Assembly (NCBI RefSeq): GCF_017676365.1
Contig: NZ_JADKMA010000006.1
Span: forward strand, 1 to 64,000
From: Streptomyces oryzae
Lineage (GTDB): Bacteria; Actinomycetota; Actinomycetes; Streptomycetales; Streptomycetaceae
Length of the DNA stretch: 64,000 nucleotides
Direction: 5' to 3'
The notes below the pieces were generated by a model, which ran no database searches, was not told the DNA's origin, and worked only from the letters and a program-made list of their open reading frames with translations. Shown here one piece after another: positions 17,815 to 27,473 of the stretch. Every line of letters starts with the position of its first letter. Within the stretch, counting starts at the first letter, position 1. A program made the translations under genes and the position numbers.

Positions 17815-19227
17815 TCACTGGTCCTTGTCCGGGGGGATTTCGGTGGGGTGGTCGGCGGCCTTCCATGCGGTCATTCCGCCGAGCACGTTGAGGACGGGCA
17901 GGTCACGGTGTGCCGCCAGCAAGCTGGCGGCGACCGAGGAGCGGTAGCCGGAGCCGCAGACGACGGCCACGGGCTTGGTGTCGGGTACCTCATCGAGCCG
18001 GTCGGGCAGTTCTGCGCCGGTGATGCGGATGGCCCCGGGCGCGTTCCCGCCCGCCCACTCGCCGGGCTGGCGGACATCGAGCAGGTCGACCTCGCCGCGC
18101 TCCAGGCGCACTTTGAGGTCGTTCACGGTGATCTGCGGGGTGGTCTTGACCGGTTTGGCCGCAGTGCGCCAGGCGGTCATGCCGCCGCGCAGCCAGCCGA
18201 CGGGGGGTGGGTAGCCGATGCGCAGAAGCTGCCAGGTGGCTTCCCACAGGTCTTCTGGCCGGTCGAGGACGAGAGCCACGCGGGCCTGGTCGGGCAGCAC
18301 TGTTCCCGCCCAGGTGGCGAACGCCGTGCCGAGACCGACGTTGAGGGCGGAGGGGATGTGACCGCCGCCGAAGGCTTCCGGGGCGCGAGTATCAAGTACC
18401 GCGGCTCCGGAGCCGCGGTGGTGCTCGAACTTGTCAGCGGTCAGGGCGGGTGGCTCTGCCGGCACGCCGAGGGGTTCCACGCCGCGCAGGTTGCGGGTAC
18501 GCATGCGCCGCCAGTACGGGGGCACGGCGGGCAGGTTGTCCATCCGGATGCATTCGCGGACGAAGTCGTCCTTGGAGTCGACCTCGGCGAGGACCGGGTT
18601 GGTGCGGCGTTCGTAGCCGATCGTGGTGGACAGGCGGCTGCCGATGTTGCCTCCGCACAGCGAGCCCGCCACATGGGTGGGATAGACCTGGACGTGGTCG
18701 GGCAGGGGCAGCAGCTTGGTCTGGATGGTCTCGCAGAATGTCTGTGCCGCCTGGCGCGCCTTTTCCCCGCCGCCGAGGAGGTCCGGGCGGGCCAGGTCGC
18801 CCACCAGCAGGGCACCGCCGGACAGGAGCAGCGCGGGTTCGTCGGCGCTCATGGCCCGGTCATAGATGAGCAGGCTGAGATGTTCCGGAGTGTGCCCGGG
18901 GGTGTGCAGTACTTCGATGCCGACGTCCCCGAGTTCGATCACCTGGCTGTCCTGGAGCGGCTGGTGGGGGTACCCGAGGCCGGCGGACGCTGCTCCCCAC
19001 ACCTGGGCGCCGGTGTGGACGGTGATCTCGGTGAGCCCGGAGAGGTAGTCGTTGTGGCCATGGGAATCGGCCGCGTGCGTGATGCGCAGGCCGTTTTCCC
19101 GGGCGGCCTCCAGATAGGGCTCGACATCGCGGCGCGGGTCGAACACCAGCGCCTGGCCGCTCTGCTCGTCTGCGACGAGGTAGGAGGCGTGTCCGAGGGA
19201 GGGAAGGTAGAACTGCTGGAAGAACAT
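17815..19227 (-). CDS. persulfide dioxygenase-type MBL-fold protein fused to two rhodanese domains (470 aa)
   Basis: The first ~245 residues form a metallo-beta-lactamase fold of the ETHE1/persulfide dioxygenase type: DSHGHNDYLSG near 55, HTPGHTPEHLSLL near 110, VGDLARPD near 145 and YPTHVAGSLCG near 190. The residue after the motif aspartate is tyrosine rather than histidine. Two rhodanese domains follow: the first (about 265-355) has LVLDRPEDLW in place of the active-site cysteine loop and is probably inactive; the second (about 370-465) has VVCGSGYRSS with the catalytic cysteine. The enzyme should oxidise low-molecular-weight thiol persulfide to sulfite. It ends a leftward operon with a rhodanese and a TauE/SafE protein. 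Confidence 0.9.
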   Translation of the reverse strand: MFFQQFYLPSLGHASYLVADEQSGQALVFDPRRDVEPYLEAARENGLRITHAADSHGHNDYLSGLTEITVHTGAQVWGAASAGLGYPHQPLQDSQVIELGDVGIEVLHTPGHTPEHLSLLIYDRAMSADEPALLLSGGALLVGDLARPDLLGGGEKARQAAQTFCETIQTKLLPLPDHVQVYPTHVAGSLCGGNIGSRLSTTIGYERRTNPVLAEVDSKDDFVRECIRMDNLPAVPPYWRRMRTRNLRGVEPLGVPAEPPALTADKFEHHRGSGAAVLDTRAPEAFGGGHIPSALNVGLGTAFATWAGTVLPDQARVALVLDRPEDLWEATWQLLRIGYPPPVGWLRGGMTAWRTAAKPVKTTPQITVNDLKVRLERGEVDLLDVRQPGEWAGGNAPGAIRITGAELPDRLDEVPDTKPVAVVCGSGYRSSVAASLLAAHRDLPVLNVLGGMTAWKAADHPTEIPPDKDQ

Positions 19228-19230
19228 CGT

Positions 19231-19548
19231 CTACGCCACCTCCCCCGGCTTCTCGTCCTGCGGCCGGCGCAGGGGCAGGCCCTGCTCGGTCCATGCCGTG
19301 ACGCCGCCGTCGAGGTTTTCCGCTCGGTAGCCACGCTCGGTGAGGTAGTCGGCCATCCGGCTGCTGCGGTGTCCGCTGCGGCAGACCGTGACCACGGGAC
19401 GTTCCCGCTCCAGCTCGTCCAGCCGCCGGCTCAGCTCCCCCATGAGCATCCATCGGGCGCCGGGAATCCGTCCGGCGTACCACTCGGACGGCTCCCGCAC
19501 ATCCACCAGCTGGACCCGGTCTTGCTGCTGCAACTGGTTGGGTTCCAT
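19231..19548 (-). CDS. single-domain rhodanese-like sulfurtransferase (105 aa)
   Basis: A stand-alone rhodanese domain with VQLVDVREPSEWYAGRIPGA near the N-terminus and the active-site loop VTVCRSGHRSS near residue 60, followed by NLDGGVTAWTEQG. The cysteine loop is intact, so it can carry a persulfide sulfur. The start at 19548 follows AAGGAGG; a start 18 bases further out lacks that spacing. It lies only three bases ahead of the persulfide dioxygenase, so it likely hands persulfide sulfur to or from that enzyme. Confidence 0.92.
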   Translation of the reverse strand: MEPNQLQQQDRVQLVDVREPSEWYAGRIPGARWMLMGELSRRLDELERERPVVTVCRSGHRSSRMADYLTERGYRAENLDGGVTAWTEQGLPLRRPQDEKPGEVA

Positions 19549-19581
19549 CAGGTCCTCCTTGATCACTTCGTTTCGCTTCGG

Positions 19582-20364
19582 TCATCCGAGGACGCCAGGG
19601 TTGATGGCGGTCTGCACCGCGACGAATGCCGCCACCACGAGCACCAGCACGGCAAAGCCGCGCCGCAGGACCCGCTGGGGCACCCGACTCGCCAGCCGTC
19701 CGGCTGCCAGCGACGCAGCCAGCGCGGCCCCGGCGAAAATGCCCGTGACGGTCATGTCCAACCTCGTCTCTCCGAGATGGGCGGCCAGCCCGGCAAGGGA
19801 GTTGATCACCAGGATCGCCAGGGAGGTGGCAACCGCGGCCGGCAGCTCCAGTCCGAGCAGCCACATCAGGGCCGGCACGGTGACGAATCCGCCGCCCACG
19901 CCCAGCAGCCCGGTCACAAAGCCCACTCCGGCTCCTGTCAGCAATGCTTTGGCCAGGCATGCCCGCCAGTTGATCCGGCCACCGCGGACCGCGCAGGCGC
20001 CTTCGGGGGCGGACCCGGAGCGCAGCATCCGCACCCCCACGATGACCATGAGGAGCGCGAAGAGCCCGAGAAGCGCTCGCGCGGGCATCATGCGGTTGAC
20101 CGCCGTACCGGCGAAGGCCGCTGCCGCCCCGGTCGCCCCGAAAATACCGGCTACCGGCCAGCGCACCTGGCCTCGCCCCAGGCGCGGCGCCAGTCCCGCG
20201 GCCGAGGAGACGGCCACCACCAGCAACGAGGTGGGCACCGCCTGCGCTACCGGCTGCCCCAGACCGTAGACGAGTGCAGGCAGGGCCAGGACCGCGCCGC
20301 CCCCGCCCGTCAGGCCGAGCGCGACGCCGGTCATCGATCCGAACAGCACTGCCAGCACAAGCAT
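19582..20364 (-). CDS. TauE/SafE-family sulfite exporter-like permease (260 aa)
   Basis: An integral membrane protein with about eight helices arranged as two repeats: LFGSMTGVALGLTGGGGAVLA near the start and GAGVGFVTGLLGVGGGFVTVPAL near the middle, the glycine-rich motifs that define TauE/SafE proteins. Family members export sulfite, sulfonates or related anions. The ATG at 20364 with GAGGTGG upstream gives the expected N-terminus; the 35-residue in-frame extension is polar and unlikely. As first gene of the operon with rhodanese and persulfide dioxygenase, it probably removes sulfite made by persulfide oxidation. Confidence 0.9.
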   Translation of the reverse strand: MLVLAVLFGSMTGVALGLTGGGGAVLALPALVYGLGQPVAQAVPTSLLVVAVSSAAGLAPRLGRGQVRWPVAGIFGATGAAAAFAGTAVNRMMPARALLGLFALLMVIVGVRMLRSGSAPEGACAVRGGRINWRACLAKALLTGAGVGFVTGLLGVGGGFVTVPALMWLLGLELPAAVATSLAILVINSLAGLAAHLGETRLDMTVTGIFAGAALAASLAAGRLASRVPQRVLRRGFAVLVLVVAAFVAVQTAINPGVLG

Positions 20365-21029
20365 CCCATCCACCTCGCCACGAGACGCTCGCACCTGCGC
20401 ACCAGCGGTCTCCCCGTGCTCGTAGAGAACGTCTCTTCGGGCGCGGGTTGCCCTCGATCGGCCAGGCAATCCCCGCCCCGCCGCTCAGGCCGGCCCCCGG
20501 CAGCAACCACTCGAAGGAATCACCCGCACCTCTGTCAGGGCGCGGCCGTATCCTCCGGGGCCAGCCGCCGGAGGAGTCGCAGTCAGGTTCTTCGTCGACA
20601 CCCGGAACCTGACCACCTGGGCAGCCGCAGCCACCTGGCTTGTGGCCCGCGTGCCGTGGCGGTGGACCCGCCGCGCGGCATCGACCGGGCCATGCCACCG
20701 CCGCCCGGCGCGGCGTACGCATCGTCTGCCGAGCGGGAACCCGCCTGCACACCGCCTACGCCACCGGCGGTCGGGAGCCGGCCCGCTTCACCGGTGCCCG
20801 CTCCGGGTGCCGGAGGCGCCTCGGTGGCCTTCGACCGCATTCGGTAGCCGGCGGACCTCCGGCCCAGGAGAGCGCATGGGTGCATGCATACGAGGACACG
20901 ACGCGCCCCGGCGGATACCTGTCGCGGGTCCGGATCACCGGGTGCGCACCTACGGGACATAATGCCTGTTTTCAGCCAATATCGCCGAGTGAGTGTCACG
21001 ACCGGCGCGGTTGGCGGAAGGTGCGTGTG
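20365..21029. promoter_or_regulatory. divergent intergenic region of the sulfur locus
   Basis: About 660 bases separate the leftward TauE-rhodanese-dioxygenase operon from the rightward molybdoenzyme gene. No frame here has a recognisable domain or a good ribosome-binding site. Its length suggests promoters for both units. I see no clear long palindrome. Confidence 0.4.
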
Positions 21030-22826
21030 GTGGACGAAGAAGGGCGGCCGATGTCCGGCGAGGCTCCGGCTCCGCCGGACACGCCCGTATCACCCGAGGC
21101 GGTCCGGAAATACCGGAGCGAGCTGACTGAAGGTGAGAATGCCATTGATCCGGCCACCTGGTCCGGTTCGGTGCCGCAGGTGTACGGCATCGCTCCGCGG
21201 GTGCGCATCGGCCGCAACAGATGGTTCAACCTGCTCTGGCTGCTGCCACTGGGATTCCTGGGTCTGATCATCGCGGTCGCGGTGGCCAAACACCTGCGCG
21301 GCCTCGGGCCGGTACAGCAGTTCATCCAGGCCTATCCGGGTACGATCCCGGTCTCGCGGCGGGCGCGCAGGGGCGGGTTGCCGGCCTGGCTGGGCTGGCA
21401 GCACTTCCTCAACCTGTTCCTACTGATCTTCATCATCCGGTCCGGGATCCAGATCATCGGTGACCACCCGCGTCTGTACTGGACCAGACACAGCACGCCG
21501 GGCCGAGAGTGGTTCCGAGTGCAGAAGCCGGTGCCGTCCGATCCGCTGTGGACCGCGAAGAAGGACTCCGTCGCTCTGCCCGGACAGGTGGGGCTGCCCG
21601 GGCTGCGGCACTCGATCGGGCTGGCCCGGTGGTGGCACCTGGGCACGGTAACGCTGTGGCTGCTCAACGGCGTGGTCTTCTACGTGCTGCTGTTCACCAC
21701 CGGGCAGTGGCGACTGGTGGTCCCCACCAGCTGGGACGTCTTCCCCAACGCGGCGTCAATACTGATCCAATACCTGTCACTGGACTGGCCGACCGAGCCT
21801 GCCTGGGTGAACTACAACAGCCTGCAGCAACTCGCCTACTTCGCCACGGTCTTCCTCGCCGCCCCGCTTGCGCTGGTAACCGGACTGGGCATGTCGCCGG
21901 CTCTCTCGACCCGGTTCAGACGGATCAGCAAACCACTGAGCATCCAGGTGGCACGCTCTTTGCACTTCCTGGTCCTCGTCTGGTTCCTGGTCTTCATCAC
22001 GGTCCACGTCACCCTGGTGTTCACCACGAACCTGCCGCGCAGCCTGAACCAGATGTACGCCGCCCGCGGCGGCGACGGCTGGACAGGTCTGTGGATCTTC
22101 CTTGCCTCGATGGCCGTGGTCATCGCCGGCTGGATCGCCGCCACCCCGTTCACGCTGCGCCACCCCCGGGTGGTGCAGCGCGCCGGGTACGCACTGATCG
22201 GCCCCGTACAGCGCCTGTTCGAGCACTTGGATGCCAGACCGGGTGAGTACACCGAGAAGGACATTTCTCCATATTTCTGGCATAACGGGCAGTACCCTGA
22301 TTCGCCCGAATACCGACAGCTCTACGACGGCAATTTCACCGATTACCGACTGCGCATTCACGGCCTGGTCGACAACCCCGTCGAACTCGACCTGCGCCAA
22401 CTGCGGGCCCTTGCCCACCATGAGCAGATCACCCAGCACTTCTGCATCCAGGGCTGGTCGGGCGTCGCCAAATGGGGCGGCGTTTCTATGCGCACGATTC
22501 TGGACCTGGTCAAACCGAAACCCGAGGCGAAATGGGCCGTCTTCTACTCCCTGGGCGACGGCCCGGACAAAGGGCGCTACTACGACGCCCATCCCATCGA
22601 GCAGATGAGCCACCACCTGACCATGCTCGCCTACGACATGAATGACCACCCGCTGTCGTTCGGCCACGGCGCCCCCCTGCGCCTGCGCAACGAAGCACAG
22701 CTCGGCTTCAAACAGGTCAAGTGGATCCAAGGCATCGAATTCGTCGCCGACTTCGCCCAGATCGGCGGTGGACACGGCGGCTACAACCAGGACCACGAGT
22801 TCTTCGGCTACCGCCAATCCCTCTGA
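21030..22826 (+). CDS. cytochrome b561-like membrane domain fused to a sulfite-oxidase-type molybdopterin domain (~598 aa)
   Basis: The N-terminal ~400 residues hold six predicted membrane helices, among them LLPLGFLGLIIAVAVA, GWQHFLNLFLLIFIIRSG, WWHLGTVTLWLLNGVVFYVL and SLHFLVLVWFLVFITVHVTL, several with histidines placed as in b-type haem proteins. From about residue 430 the protein is a sulfite oxidase-fold Mo domain: YRLRIHGLVDNPVELDL, then the molybdenum-ligand cysteine in QHFCIQGWSGVAKWGG near 471, and LRNEAQLGFKQVKWIQGI at the end. No Tat signal is present. Start: GTG 21030 with GGAAGG eight bases upstream; ATG 21051 is possible. Opposite the persulfide dioxygenase operon it would oxidise sulfite or reduce an S-oxide, exchanging electrons with the membrane; direction is inferred. 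Confidence 0.88.
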   Translation: MDEEGRPMSGEAPAPPDTPVSPEAVRKYRSELTEGENAIDPATWSGSVPQVYGIAPRVRIGRNRWFNLLWLLPLGFLGLIIAVAVAKHLRGLGPVQQFIQAYPGTIPVSRRARRGGLPAWLGWQHFLNLFLLIFIIRSGIQIIGDHPRLYWTRHSTPGREWFRVQKPVPSDPLWTAKKDSVALPGQVGLPGLRHSIGLARWWHLGTVTLWLLNGVVFYVLLFTTGQWRLVVPTSWDVFPNAASILIQYLSLDWPTEPAWVNYNSLQQLAYFATVFLAAPLALVTGLGMSPALSTRFRRISKPLSIQVARSLHFLVLVWFLVFITVHVTLVFTTNLPRSLNQMYAARGGDGWTGLWIFLASMAVVIAGWIAATPFTLRHPRVVQRAGYALIGPVQRLFEHLDARPGEYTEKDISPYFWHNGQYPDSPEYRQLYDGNFTDYRLRIHGLVDNPVELDLRQLRALAHHEQITQHFCIQGWSGVAKWGGVSMRTILDLVKPKPEAKWAVFYSLGDGPDKGRYYDAHPIEQMSHHLTMLAYDMNDHPLSFGHGAPLRLRNEAQLGFKQVKWIQGIEFVADFAQIGGGHGGYNQDHEFFGYRQSL

Positions 22827-24145: not shown

Positions 24146-25759
24146 ATGCACGATTTGGCCGGACGAGCGTTCCGCGGGAGGCCTGTACGTCGGCGTTTTC
24201 TCGGCTCGGCGGCGGGCCTGGTCGGTACGGCGGCGCTGGGCCTGGCGACGTCGGGGTGTGACGAGCAGACCGGTGCGGCCACGCGGAGCAGCGCTGCTCG
24301 CTCCGCGGCCCTCGAGCGAAATCGGCCGGGCACCGCGCAGTGGCGTCTCGGGCGTCAGGGCCCGCAGGAGGCGATCGAGGGGTACGCCGACCGGGCGAGC
24401 GTGCTCCCCGGTGAGGAGGTGCGGCTGTTCGTGTCCACTCTGGCCGGAGCGTTCCGGGTGACGGCCTACCGGGTCGGCTGGTACCGCGGCAAGCAGGCGC
24501 GGAGGGTGTGGCGGTCGCGGCCTGTCACGGGGCGGCGCCAGAAGGGCCCGGATTTCGACACGCGTACCCGTACCGTCGCGACCGACTGGGAGCCCAGTGT
24601 GCGGATCTCCACCCAGGGCTGGCCGGAGGGTGCCTACCTGCTGGTCCTGGATGCCGATTCGGGTCACCAGCGGTACGTGCCGCTGGTGGTGCGCTCAGCT
24701 GCCGCCAAGGGCCGGACCGTGCTGGTGCACGCGACCGCCACGTGGCAGGCGTACAACCGGTGGGGAGGTTACAACCTCTACACCGGGAAGGACGGCGGCT
24801 ACCAGGACCGCTCCCTCGCGGTCAGCTTCGACCGGCCCTACGACAAGGACGGCGCCGAGAAGTTCATGTACTACGAGCGCCCTCTTGTCGTGCTGGCCGA
24901 ACGGGTCGGTATCCCGCTCGCGTACACCACCGGGCTGGACATCTCCGCCGACCCCGGCGTACTGCGCGGTGCGACGAGTATCGTCTCGCTCGGCCACGAC
25001 GAGTACTGGACCCCGCAACAGCGCCGCCACATCACCGCGGCGAGGGACCAGGGCACCAACATCGCCTTTCTGGGGGCGAACACCTGCTTCCGGCGGATTC
25101 GCCCGGAGTCCTCGCCGCTGGGGCGGGACCGGACAGTGGTGTGCTACAAGACCGACTGGCACCGCGATCCCGTCTACCCGGACCGCCCCTCGCTGGTCAC
25201 CACCGACTATCGGGTCGCGCCGCGGCCGGACCCGGAGTCGTCACTGACCGGGGTGCTGTACGAGGGATATCCCGCCGATGCGCCCTTCGTCGTCCACCAG
25301 CCGGACCACTGGGTGTTCCGGGGTACGGGCGCACGCAAGGGCGACCGCTTCGACCATCTGGTGGGTGTCGAGTACGACCGTGTCACCCCGGAACAGGACT
25401 CCACACCGCGGCCCATCGAGGTCGTGGCCCACTCGCCGTTGGTGTGCAACGGACGGCACACCCATGCGGACGCGGCCTATTACACGGTGGACAGCGGCGC
25501 CGGTGTCTTCGCGACCGGCACGATGCGCTGGGTGGAGTCTCTGATGGCGGGCACCCCCGATGGCGGGGGCAGCCACGGGATGGACGCACGGACCTGCCGC
25601 TTCGTCACGAAGACCACCGAGAACCTGCTGCGCGGATTCGCCAGAGGACCGGCGGCACGGGAGTGCGGCGCGGCCAGGGACAACGTGCGACAGGTATACG
25701 CGGACCAGCCCGCCACCGGCTCCACAGCGGGGGCCTCCGGCAGCCACGCCGGCGTCTGA
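24146..25759 (+). CDS. Tat-exported lipoprotein with N,N-dimethylformamidase beta-subunit-like domain (537 aa)
   Basis: The N-terminus has a twin-arginine signal with lipobox: RRRFLGSAAGL, a hydrophobic run and LATSGC, so the protein should be exported folded and lipid-anchored. The rest matches the N,N-dimethylformamidase beta-subunit-like family: WYRGKQARRVWRS, an Ig-like strand region, HATATWQAYNRWGGYNLY, SFDRPYDKDG, and the SLGHDEYWTPQQR and FLGANTCFRRIR blocks around residues 285-320. In true dimethylformamidase the beta subunit works with a small alpha subunit; none is adjacent, so the activity here is uncertain. No partner gene is evident; it stands alone among decayed loci. Confidence 0.85.
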   Translation: MHDLAGRAFRGRPVRRRFLGSAAGLVGTAALGLATSGCDEQTGAATRSSAARSAALERNRPGTAQWRLGRQGPQEAIEGYADRASVLPGEEVRLFVSTLAGAFRVTAYRVGWYRGKQARRVWRSRPVTGRRQKGPDFDTRTRTVATDWEPSVRISTQGWPEGAYLLVLDADSGHQRYVPLVVRSAAAKGRTVLVHATATWQAYNRWGGYNLYTGKDGGYQDRSLAVSFDRPYDKDGAEKFMYYERPLVVLAERVGIPLAYTTGLDISADPGVLRGATSIVSLGHDEYWTPQQRRHITAARDQGTNIAFLGANTCFRRIRPESSPLGRDRTVVCYKTDWHRDPVYPDRPSLVTTDYRVAPRPDPESSLTGVLYEGYPADAPFVVHQPDHWVFRGTGARKGDRFDHLVGVEYDRVTPEQDSTPRPIEVVAHSPLVCNGRHTHADAAYYTVDSGAGVFATGTMRWVESLMAGTPDGGGSHGMDARTCRFVTKTTENLLRGFARGPAARECGAARDNVRQVYADQPATGSTAGASGSHAGV

Positions 25760-26438: not shown

Positions 26439-27473
26439 TCAGTTCAGGTGGTGCAGAGCCTTCCGGAAGGATGCGGCATGGTCGGCTTCGTCACCGGCGA
26501 TCTCCGTGAACAGGTCCGCGGCTTGAGCGTCGCCTGCTTTCTCGGCCCGGCGTGCGAATGAGGGATACATGACCTCGGCTTCGTAGGTTTCGCCGGCGAT
26601 GGACGTGCGCAGGTTGGTTGCGGTGTCCGAGACCAGGCCGTCCAGGCGGGCCTCGGCGGCGAAGTGTTCACGCAGTTCCACGTCGGCCAATCCCTCGAAC
26701 AGTCGGGCGAGTTGCTTTTGGCCGGTCTCTCGTGCGTGATGTGCGTACAGCGTGTAGGAGGCGTTGGCGAGTGCCTCGCCGTGCATGGCGTCTTCGAGGT
26801 TGGCGCGGGTCCGGGCGGAAGAGACCTGTGGCAGTCCGGCCGGTACCTGGACCGGATCCGCCTTCGGCGGCGCCGGTACGGTGCCGTTGCCGGTGGTGAC
26901 CGCTTTGAGGGCCGAGGCGAGCAGGCGGCGGTGTTCGGCCTCGTCCGCAGCGATCTCCGTGAAGAGTTCGGCCGCTGCCTTGTCCCCGTCCTGCCGGGCC
27001 TCCTCGGCGTATGTGGGGTACATCGACGTCGCCTCGGCACGCTCGCCCTCGGCCGCCTGCCGGATGTTGGCCTCGTCGCTGCCCACGTACGCGATGGTCG
27101 CGGCCTCCTTGGTGAAGTGGTCGTCGAGCTCCACCTCGGCGGCGCTGCGGAACAGCTCTGCGACGCGGCCGTGTCCCTCGCGGTCGGCCTGGTCGGAATA
27201 GAAGAGGTAGGAGGCGTGGGCGAAGCCCTCACCACGCATCGCGGCCCGCGTGTCCTGCACCGTGCTCAAGGCCGGGGTTTTCGGGTTGGCCGAAGCAGCA
27301 GCCTGTGCCGCGGACACCGATACCGCGGCAGTCAGTGCCAACGCGGCACCCGCACCTGTGTGGTGATGTCGGCCAAGCGGTGAGCCATCGGGAAGAACAG
27401 GTTGATCGCCAGTAGCGCGGTCGCCTCCGCATCGCCGTGGGGTCAGCACATCCATCAACTGGCCAACGGTCAC
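26439..27473 (-). CDS. secreted tandem ferritin-like (rubrerythrin-type) protein, 5' end uncertain
   Basis: Two copies of a ferritin-like four-helix domain follow one another (about 80-175 and 210-340). Each has the pattern GE-x-hA-A/N-SY-x-x-Y, an E-x-x-x-H pair (ELDDHFTKEA, ELREHFAAEA), EMYP/VMYPSFA and a final EIAADEAEH or EIAGDEADH, so di-iron ligands are present in both. A hydrophobic segment (GAGAALALTAAVSVSAAQA) ends at an AQA-A cleavage-like site, implying export. The 50 residues ahead of it are not signal-like: the GTG at 27473 is the only start reached, and the positively charged N-region seems replaced by unrelated sequence. The gene's 5' end was probably rewritten by recombination near 27360. 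Confidence 0.7.
   Translation of the reverse strand: MTVGQLMDVLTPRRCGGDRATGDQPVLPDGSPLGRHHHTGAGAALALTAAVSVSAAQAAASANPKTPALSTVQDTRAAMRGEGFAHASYLFYSDQADREGHGRVAELFRSAAEVELDDHFTKEAATIAYVGSDEANIRQAAEGERAEATSMYPTYAEEARQDGDKAAAELFTEIAADEAEHRRLLASALKAVTTGNGTVPAPPKADPVQVPAGLPQVSSARTRANLEDAMHGEALANASYTLYAHHARETGQKQLARLFEGLADVELREHFAAEARLDGLVSDTATNLRTSIAGETYEAEVMYPSFARRAEKAGDAQAADLFTEIAGDEADHAASFRKALHHLN

Follow-up and report, generated by a model that had tools for sequence, protein, structure and literature searches.

The window, that is, the whole stretch of 64,000 nucleotides of Streptomyces oryzae DNA that was analysed, carries a leftward operon of sulfur genes and a divergent gene that encodes a membrane protein fused to a molybdenum (Mo) domain. 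The operon, on the minus strand, is comprised of a TauE/SafE sulfite exporter (19582-20469, likely start near 20364; Pfam E 2.7e-43), a single-domain rhodanese (19231-19566; Pfam E 3.4e-17), the cysteine of which lies within CRSGHR, and a three-domain protein (17815-19227). In the latter, Pfam finds a persulfide dioxygenase (PDO), a rhodanese-like domain devoid of cysteine and a rhodanese; the solved homologues are 3tp9 (E 7.8e-81) and 3r2u (E 7.4e-59), and the cysteines are at positions 165, 191, 226 and 424. This is the plan of CstB, or type III PDO, the activity of which the protein may share. The operon is of a known kind, being similar in gene content and in its PDO and rhodanese plan to CstB and to the CsoR-PDO-rhodanese-TauE circuit of S. 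coelicolor (ScCsoR-ScPDO-rhodanese-TauE), for which the authors propose sulfite export via TauE and, in the available part of their account, do not mention a Mo enzyme (PMC7533328).

The divergent gene (21030..22826, plus strand) starts with GTG and encodes a one-chain fusion of 598 residues, a di-haem cytochrome b followed by a Mo oxidoreductase. Open reading frames, translation and Pfam confirm the positions of all four genes, the fusion among them, as they were given in the preliminary description of this DNA. The fusion belongs to a large, little-studied family. A scan of 84,980 species genomes with patterns of the cytochrome part confirmed at least 555 relatives, and the best 80 of these at least 555 were examined. 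The set of 97 fusion loci consists of 80 and a further 12 from genomes and 5 from plasmids; one locus (L005), which is the same contig as L064 and identical to it, was left out, two members (L093 and L095) are 99% identical, and one (L118) is cut by a contig end. Full-length relatives are 51-93% identical to the S. oryzae protein, and those among the matches listed bear mostly generic names. Plasmids carry relatives too: in 17 records, including those of Rhodococcus, Rhizobium, Bradyrhizobium and Variovorax, 80% or more of the protein is matched. No paper on the six-helix family was recognised among the open-access papers listed.

The order of the parts, membrane helices first and Mo domain last, is as the preliminary description had it, and hydropathy and the AF2 model (of moderate confidence, pLDDT 73.5 and 75.7) agree on the six helices proposed there. 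TM1 (residues 68-86; 21231..21287; hydropathy 2.57) is an extra N-terminal helix which, according to the alignment, is missing from subgroup B, leaving five helices. TM2 (21402..21461; hydropathy span 126-144) bears the presumed haem ligand H125, supported by the fold match and aligned with H18 of FdnI, the gamma subunit of formate dehydrogenase-N. The long loop that follows (residues 145-203; 21462..21638) is predicted to be cytoplasmic, is longer in the fusions than in four Mo-less relatives in the alignment, and ends in a second presumed ligand, H203. TM3 (204-222; 21639..21695) and TM4 (268-286; 21831..21887) are defined by hydropathy and the AF2 model. Between them, on the predicted outer face, lies a YN..Q motif (262-266; 21813..21827), in which Y is conserved in 91, N in 95 and Q in all of the 97 homologues. 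TM5 (21963..22022; hydropathy span 313-331) carries the presumed ligands H312 and H326. All four histidines are invariant (97/97). TM6 (353-371; 22086..22142; hydropathy 2.09), which is not preceded by a conserved twin-arginine, leads to the Oxidored_molyb domain of the sulfite-oxidase fold (437-573; 22338..22748; Pfam E 3e-32). The domain contains the motif H470-x-C472-x-Q474-x-W476-S. Cys472 (codon 22443-22445), assigned as the Mo ligand through the known family motif, is invariant in the 97 homologues.

The membrane half had been likened, together with the Mo half, to MsrPQ and YedYZ. The evidence for the membrane half points to a cytochrome b of the FdnI/HyaC type rather than the MsrQ/YedZ type. 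The Pfam family Ni_hydr_CYTB reaches 29.0 bits over residues 124-342, against a cut-off of 30.1; among Mo-less relatives, one (L055, 29.8) is also below the cut-off and two (L057, 33.5; L056, 33.6) are above it. VIA-align places FdnI ahead of all other PDB structures for the membrane part (1kqf_C; Z 11.1, rmsd 3.3, 180 aligned), and the membrane part alone gives Z 10.9, rmsd 3.5 and 176 aligned residues; for a helical bundle a Z near 11 is only suggestive of an FdnI-like fold in the model. Foldseek also ranks FdnI first (probability 0.97, E 0.49), with no structure reaching E 0.001 or better. With hhalign, the alignment missed the single FdnI sequence and scored 0.3% against the single MsrQ sequence. 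A ferric-reductase domain has no Pfam match in the fusion to E 0.1, and MsrQ and ferric-reductase folds do not appear in its VIA structure-match lists, although a relation to them may exist. FdnI and HyaC have in common with the fusion the predicted fold, the four histidines and the YN..Q motif. The 14 residues between H312 and H326 equal the distance from H155 to H169 in FdnI, and the motif has the same order as Y109-N110..Q113. N110 and H169 of FdnI have a role at the quinone, and we infer that the motif marks the quinone-site end of the membrane core. The FdnI-type four-helix core with its two histidine pairs, the pairing of which is presumed, is supplemented in the fusion by TM1, TM6 and the Mo domain.

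The methods arrive at different nearest relatives of the Mo domain, and the choice between MsrP and the sulfite dehydrogenases is unsettled. MsrP is the best NCBIfam match (68.4 bits against an equivalog cut-off of 207), is first in Foldseek (1xdy, E 2.9e-10) and gives 97.5% in hhalign. In VIA-align MsrP (Z 15.6) comes after both SoxCD (Z 16.3) and 2c9x, a sulfite dehydrogenase (Z 17.3), and the Thermus sulfite oxidase 6y0k (E 6.7e-8) is slightly ahead of MsrP (E 4.1e-7) in phmmer. Every equivalog matched stays below its cut-off, including SorA (47.4/600), SoxC (40.3/420) and SorT (27.5/570). In a tree of Mo domains the 18 input fusions form one clade (100/100); support for their nearest relatives is 81/59, with the long branches of MsrP and the Sco3746 type flagged. 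SorA, SorT, SoxC and the Thermus enzyme share the fold of the catalytic domain; the fusion differs from SorA, SorT and SoxC in being joined to a membrane part and in lacking a Mo-co dimerisation domain in its Pfam list to E 0.1, and its chain ends 25 residues past the catalytic-domain match. MsrP is exported by way of an N-terminal Tat signal and is separate from MsrQ, whereas the Mo domain of the fusion stands behind six helices, the last of which has no conserved twin-arginine before it.

The Mo domain appears, from the sequences, to face the cytoplasm. This is predicted because Lys and Arg near the membrane are more numerous on the predicted cytoplasmic side in 97/97 homologues (median excess 10, least 6). 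The mean number of Lys and Arg (n=86) is 8.7 in the TM2-TM3 loop, 4.2 without acidic residues in the TM4-TM5 loop and 4.0 after TM6, on the predicted inside, and 1.5 (TM3-TM4) and 1.4 (TM5-TM6) on the other. The charges of FdnI's own loops are biased in the reverse sense, and the FdnI-type core therefore seems to be inverted in the fusion. The TM1-TM2 loop of the S. oryzae protein is positive (six Lys and Arg, no acidic residue; family mean 3.2), which speaks against the predicted topology.

A precedent for a haem-b/Mo fusion in one chain is already known. Tooke et al. 2017 (PMC5449189) describe Sco3746 as a polytopic haem-MoCo protein, predicted to be a di-haem b type, that has five TMDs with a twin-arginine before TMD5 and the Mo domain of which leaves the cytoplasm through Tat. 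According to the same paper MsrP is likewise Tat-exported and is not joined to MsrQ (PMC5449189). The two fusions are alike in having one chain with helices first, Oxidored_molyb last and a predicted di-haem b, and differ in that the S. oryzae protein has six helices (subgroup B aligns with five), a Mo domain predicted inside and no Tat motif. A Sec-Tat handover like that of Sco3746 would place the Mo domain outside, and a twin-arginine does precede TM5 in 26/86 members, among them the S. oryzae fusion (RR at 297). The last helix, however, is preceded by a twin-arginine in only 1/86 of group A and 0/6 of group B, that is, 1/92; [ST]RRx[FLVIM] matches occur in 3/97, one in the N-tail and two where TM6 ends or beyond it (placed from alignments); TM6 is more hydrophobic than the Tat-motif-preceded TM5 of the Sco3746-type protein of this genome (2.09 vs 1.66); and the charge bias opposes an outside Mo domain. 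Export by this route is thus very improbable. The preliminary description had seen no Tat signal, had guessed at a cytoplasmic Mo domain and had named a hidden export signal as the contrary case; the first holds, the second is supported by the prediction, and the search before TM6 yielded only the single twin-arginine above.

The Sco3746-type protein, C341, has five helices with TRRGAL before TM5, and Pfam, searched at E 1e-5, assigns it to no cytochrome family. Beside this Tat-exported plan the fusion, predicted to face inward, appears to be a new variant. If its orientation holds, one genome has one-chain membrane enzymes of the sulfite-oxidase family in both orientations, FdnI-type cytochromes can be flipped, and a quinone-wired Mo centre of this family would operate on the cytoplasmic side, in contrast to its best-studied relatives.

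A complete path from sulfide through persulfide and sulfite to sulfate was suggested earlier, in which the Mo domain would be a cytoplasmic sulfite dehydrogenase that feeds the quinone pool. The fusion gene is indeed the divergent neighbour of PDO and TauE, and the sulfite-oxidase fold, with sulfite dehydrogenases or the Thermus oxidase matching as well as MsrP or better, counts for such a path. The gene context does not bear it out. PDO and TauE were each found in 0/97 other fusion loci (tblastn, E 1e-5, available flanks), including a 93%-identical relative (L061) with about 8 kb on each side; in the 80-locus set both flanks extend to 5 kb or more in 54/80 and to 2 kb in 63/80, so that distant partners could be missed. 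A full-length PDO match is missing in 4/10 fusion-bearing genomes, and a rhodanese is near 2/97 fusions (L090 and L131), both with a MoeB-like match as well. The missing dimerisation domain, scores that fall well short of the cut-offs for SorA, SoxC and SorT, and the sulfite export proposed for S. coelicolor (PMC7533328) also argue against it, and we consider the path unlikely. The nearest neighbours are on the strand of the fusion about half of the time (35/67 downstream, 39/71 upstream), which indicates that there is no general operon, and no Pfam family has more than 7 members among 137 nearest neighbours (the downstream ORF of L089 excluded; ORFs called with a GC3-based caller, which may miss small genes). 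The PDO/TauE operon would then be a sulfane-sulfur detoxification unit separate from the fusion, and their adjacency is probably accidental.

The reading we prefer, at about even chances, is of a molybdoenzyme that stands alone, is anchored in the membrane and linked to quinone, and most likely acts as a cytoplasmic quinol-dependent reductase built on an inverted FdnI-type core. TM2-TM5 would form the di-haem core, upside-down relative to FdnI, with haems on H203/H312 and H125/H326, and TM6 would lead into the cytoplasmic Mo domain. A quinone site may lie close to the outer face, where N263 and H326 are, and exchange electrons through the two haems with the Mo centre, at which a cytoplasmic S- or N-oxide, or a different small oxyanion, would be reduced. 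NarGHI, with its loop, is the analogy for an inward quinol-dependent reductase, and the fusion would work like a NarGHI in one chain. The domains, conserved residues, charge bias, missing Tat motif and FdnI-like predicted fold come from the tools; from the charges we infer the topology, and the haem pairing, the position of the quinone site, the direction of electron flow and the substrate class are our interpretation. Reduction rather than oxidation is probable, the inverted geometry being its one ground.

FdnI-type anchors usually pass electrons from a dehydrogenase to quinone, and the fusion might accordingly be a cytoplasmic dehydrogenase of another substrate that reduces quinone, in a dissipative or detoxifying role. 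In the neighbourhood of relatives, genes for a FAD/NAD reductase and for TCA enzymes with Fe-S centres are met repeatedly, perhaps a sign of redox stress. With an inverted core, electron flow towards quinone would diminish the proton-motive force, and MsrP, which leads by NCBIfam score and Foldseek, is a reductase; the dehydrogenase is accordingly rather doubtful. An extension of the preferred quinol-dependent reductase, offered only tentatively, is that the inverted di-haem b/Mo family is a one-chain proton-motive quinol reductase, oxidising quinol on the outer side of the membrane and reducing an oxidised substrate in the cytoplasm. Part of the family would, on this tentative view, lie in a nitrosative/redox-stress island that also holds additional genes for aconitase, succinate dehydrogenase and cytochrome oxidase.

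The 598-residue protein encoded at 21030-22826 (forward strand) combines a cytochrome b and a molybdenum (Mo) oxidoreductase in one chain. Six strong hydrophobic helices at the N-terminus (TM1-TM6) are followed by an Oxidored_molyb domain with the Mo-ligand Cys472, and the AF2 model, computed from 65 sequences (pLDDT 73.5, pTM 0.71), contains the same six helices as the hydrophobicity profile. The gene diverges from a leftward run encoding a persulfide dioxygenase (PDO)-rhodanese-rhodanese protein, a rhodanese and TauE/SafE. The open reading frames, helices, domain and model thus bear out the preliminary description of leftward sulfur genes and a divergent six-helix, Mo-domain protein. The source genome is 7.7 Mb in 404 contigs. 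Further along the window, a DMFA2_C (N,N-dimethylformamidase beta-like) protein at 24146-25759 starts with a signal-like stretch that carries RR and ends in Cys, and is read here as a lipoprotein/Tat substrate; the protein at 26439-27473 has an N-terminal hydrophobic stretch and then two rubrerythrin/ferritin-like stretches.

The fusion family is real and widespread, and is apparently unstudied in the open-access literature searched. A scan of 84,980 species genomes with patterns taken from the cytochrome part confirmed at least 555 relatives, the best 80 of which were kept; these are 65-93% identical to the window protein and come from Streptomyces, Arthrobacter, Nocardia, Mycobacterium, Microbacterium, Dormibacterota, Thermoleophilia, Myxococcus and others. 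Full-length relatives are scattered across the phylum; within the genus, 2 of 37 genomes have them, the window's own (G000) and G013. Matches occur in 515 plasmid records, and in 17 of them one match spans at least 80% of the query; fusion identity is 71-75% in Rhodococcus and 51-53% in Proteobacteria, and 13 of the 15 plasmid matches listed are named 'molybdopterin-dependent oxidoreductase'. Besides the six-helix fusions (group A), there are shorter ones without TM1 (subgroup B; six sequences of 495-498 residues as called, 38-41% identical) and a third set (four loci) of cytochromes alone, in which TM1 is present, the Mo domain absent and the TM2-TM3 loop shorter. The 18 fusions of A and B used in a Mo-domain tree form one clade (100/100).

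The membrane core most resembles FdnI, the gamma subunit of formate dehydrogenase-N. FdnI is the top membrane match in the PDB for the whole model (Z 11.1, rmsd 3.3, 180 aligned) and ranks first for the membrane part alone (Z 10.9, rmsd 3.5, 176 aligned), where hydrogenase cytochrome b and bc1 reach at most Z 8.5; Foldseek also ranks it first (probability 0.97), but with E 0.49. The family alignment had no hhalign match to the FdnI sequence alone. H125, H203, Y262-N263-x-x-Q266, H312 and H326 of the fusion follow the same order as H18, H57, Y109-N110-A-G-Q113, H155 and H169 of E. coli FdnI, the last two histidines are 14 residues apart in both, and the structural alignment, starting at model residue 113 and chain residue 6, pairs H125 with H18. 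Presumably, the four FdnI histidines are haem ligands, and N110 and H169 contact the quinone analogue. The four histidines of the fusion are invariant in 97/97 homologues and kept by the four Mo-less relatives. These Mo-less six-helix cytochromes b, at L055-L058, also have a similar charge bias; the fusion query at E 1e-5 found no Mo domain around them.

The loop charges of the core run in the reverse pattern to those of FdnI. In E. coli FdnI the K+R counts, taken from the N-tail through 40 C-tail residues, are 5, 1, 7, 2 and 11; in the core of the fusions the means (91 non-B sequences) are 0.4, 8.7, 1.6, 4.2 and 1.4. The loop charges predict an N-in/C-in topology for group A, with TM1 in front, and N-out/C-in for group B. 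K+R is higher on the predicted inside in 97/97 sequences (smallest excess 6), which are related, hence non-independent, with identity down to about 40%. Counter to the charge rule, the TM1-TM2 loop of the window protein carries 6 K+R. An RR precedes the last helix in 1/86 sequences of group A and 0/6 of group B. The prediction agrees with the earlier guess of a cytoplasmic Mo domain, and the rarity of RR with the reported lack of a Tat signal. The genome's second fusion, C341, is 507 residues long in the frame used. Its helices number five, with TRRGAL immediately ahead of TM5, and its Mo motif is CVEGWS; this is the arrangement of Sco3746, whose Tat-dependent export of reporters was demonstrated in PMC5449189. 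With this Sco3746-type protein and the window fusion, a single genome appears to code for both Mo-domain orientations. Predicted orientation and core type set the window's family apart from the known one-chain haem/Mo fusions.

If the core is inverted, with the quinone site at the N263/H326 end, the outer face would be where quinol is oxidised; from there electrons would travel inward across the membrane to the Mo centre, which would use them to reduce its substrate on the cytoplasmic side. NarGHI builds proton-motive force, and inward electron flow would do the same here. A reductase is favoured with moderate confidence, because the quinol-to-Mo direction would build this force and the opposite one would waste it.

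H470, C472, Q474 and W476 of the Mo domain are invariant in 97/97 homologues. Among NCBIfam models, MsrP (68 bits) scores above SorA (47), SoxC (40) and SorT (28), all far below cut-off; hhalign of the family gave 97.5% for MsrP and 93.3% for C341, and Foldseek places MsrP first. Two other rankings run against this. By phmmer, Thermus sulfite oxidase 6y0k (E 6.7e-8) stands above MsrP (E 4.1e-7), and VIA-align gives MsrP Z 15.6, level with plant sulfite oxidase and a yeast nitrate reductase and below both SoxCD (Z 16.3) and sulfite dehydrogenase 2c9x (Z 17.3). The Mo-co dimerisation domain is absent from the Pfam list for the window protein.

Homologues of the leftward PDO with solved structures are 3tp9 and 3r2u; the protein itself has Cys191 and Cys424, and its middle rhodanese-like domain is without Cys; PDO, Cys-less rhodanese-like domain and rhodanese together are presumably the plan of CstB/type III PDO. 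The same function set is under CsoR in S. coelicolor, where TauE is proposed as the exit for PDO-made sulfite (PMC7533328). At least within the flanks covered, the fusion is not tied to this operon; co-regulation at a distance may exist. PDO and TauE were found at 0/97 other fusion loci (80 named, 12 further and five plasmid loci; flanks of at most 8 kb in the 80, both reaching 5 kb in 54 of these), and a full-length PDO match was present in six of ten fusion-bearing genomes and in none of the other four (G013, G153, G263 and G155). The complete sulfide-to-sulfate path suggested earlier is thus unsupported. Another PDO-type protein of the window's genome (C380:20031-21344; 34% identical), with rhodanese-domain matches nearby, is probably part of a second sulfane-sulfur unit.

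Other neighbours of the relatives hint at redox or nitrosative stress. A 110-residue cupin occurs around 18/98 loci (close downstream in 10, on the same strand in 9 of those 10), an FAD/NAD reductase in 9/98, MoaA in 5/98, and DUF488 also recurs. L131 encodes a 1249-residue molybdopterin oxidoreductase, read here as NarG, amid what look like NarH-, NarJ-, NarI-like and Moco genes; nitrate reductases are also annotated at two plasmid loci. In a test over 80 loci, three E. coli stretches (two holding TCA genes) supplied 56 of the 57 queries, and the other was an actinobacterial aconitase chosen after being seen near relatives. More than two loci were reached by that aconitase (11), sdhB (9), sdhA (6) and lpd (4); 8/57 queries reached one or two loci, and 45/57, including gltA, eno, ftsZ and secA, reached no locus. 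As a control this is rough, since queries from E. coli have lower sensitivity, family sizes differ and some loci are closely related (L093 and L095 are 99% identical). The aconitase and succinate dehydrogenase genes, seen at L082, L092, L093, L095, L107, L121, L131, L137, L140 and others, are possibly a spare Fe-S/TCA stress island.

In subgroup B, a conserved small, apparently membrane protein of 153-183 residues adjoins the fusion in L054 and lies one gene further in L049-L051. A protein of 340-381 residues adjoins it in L049-L051 and lies within about 1 kb in L054, with a relative in L052; a Pfam scan of two members of each gave no match. Each of the three proteobacterial plasmid loci examined (L163, L164 and L166) has a DUF2945 gene immediately upstream of the fusion and in the same orientation as it, and also a DUF488 gene, nearly 9 kb off in L164.
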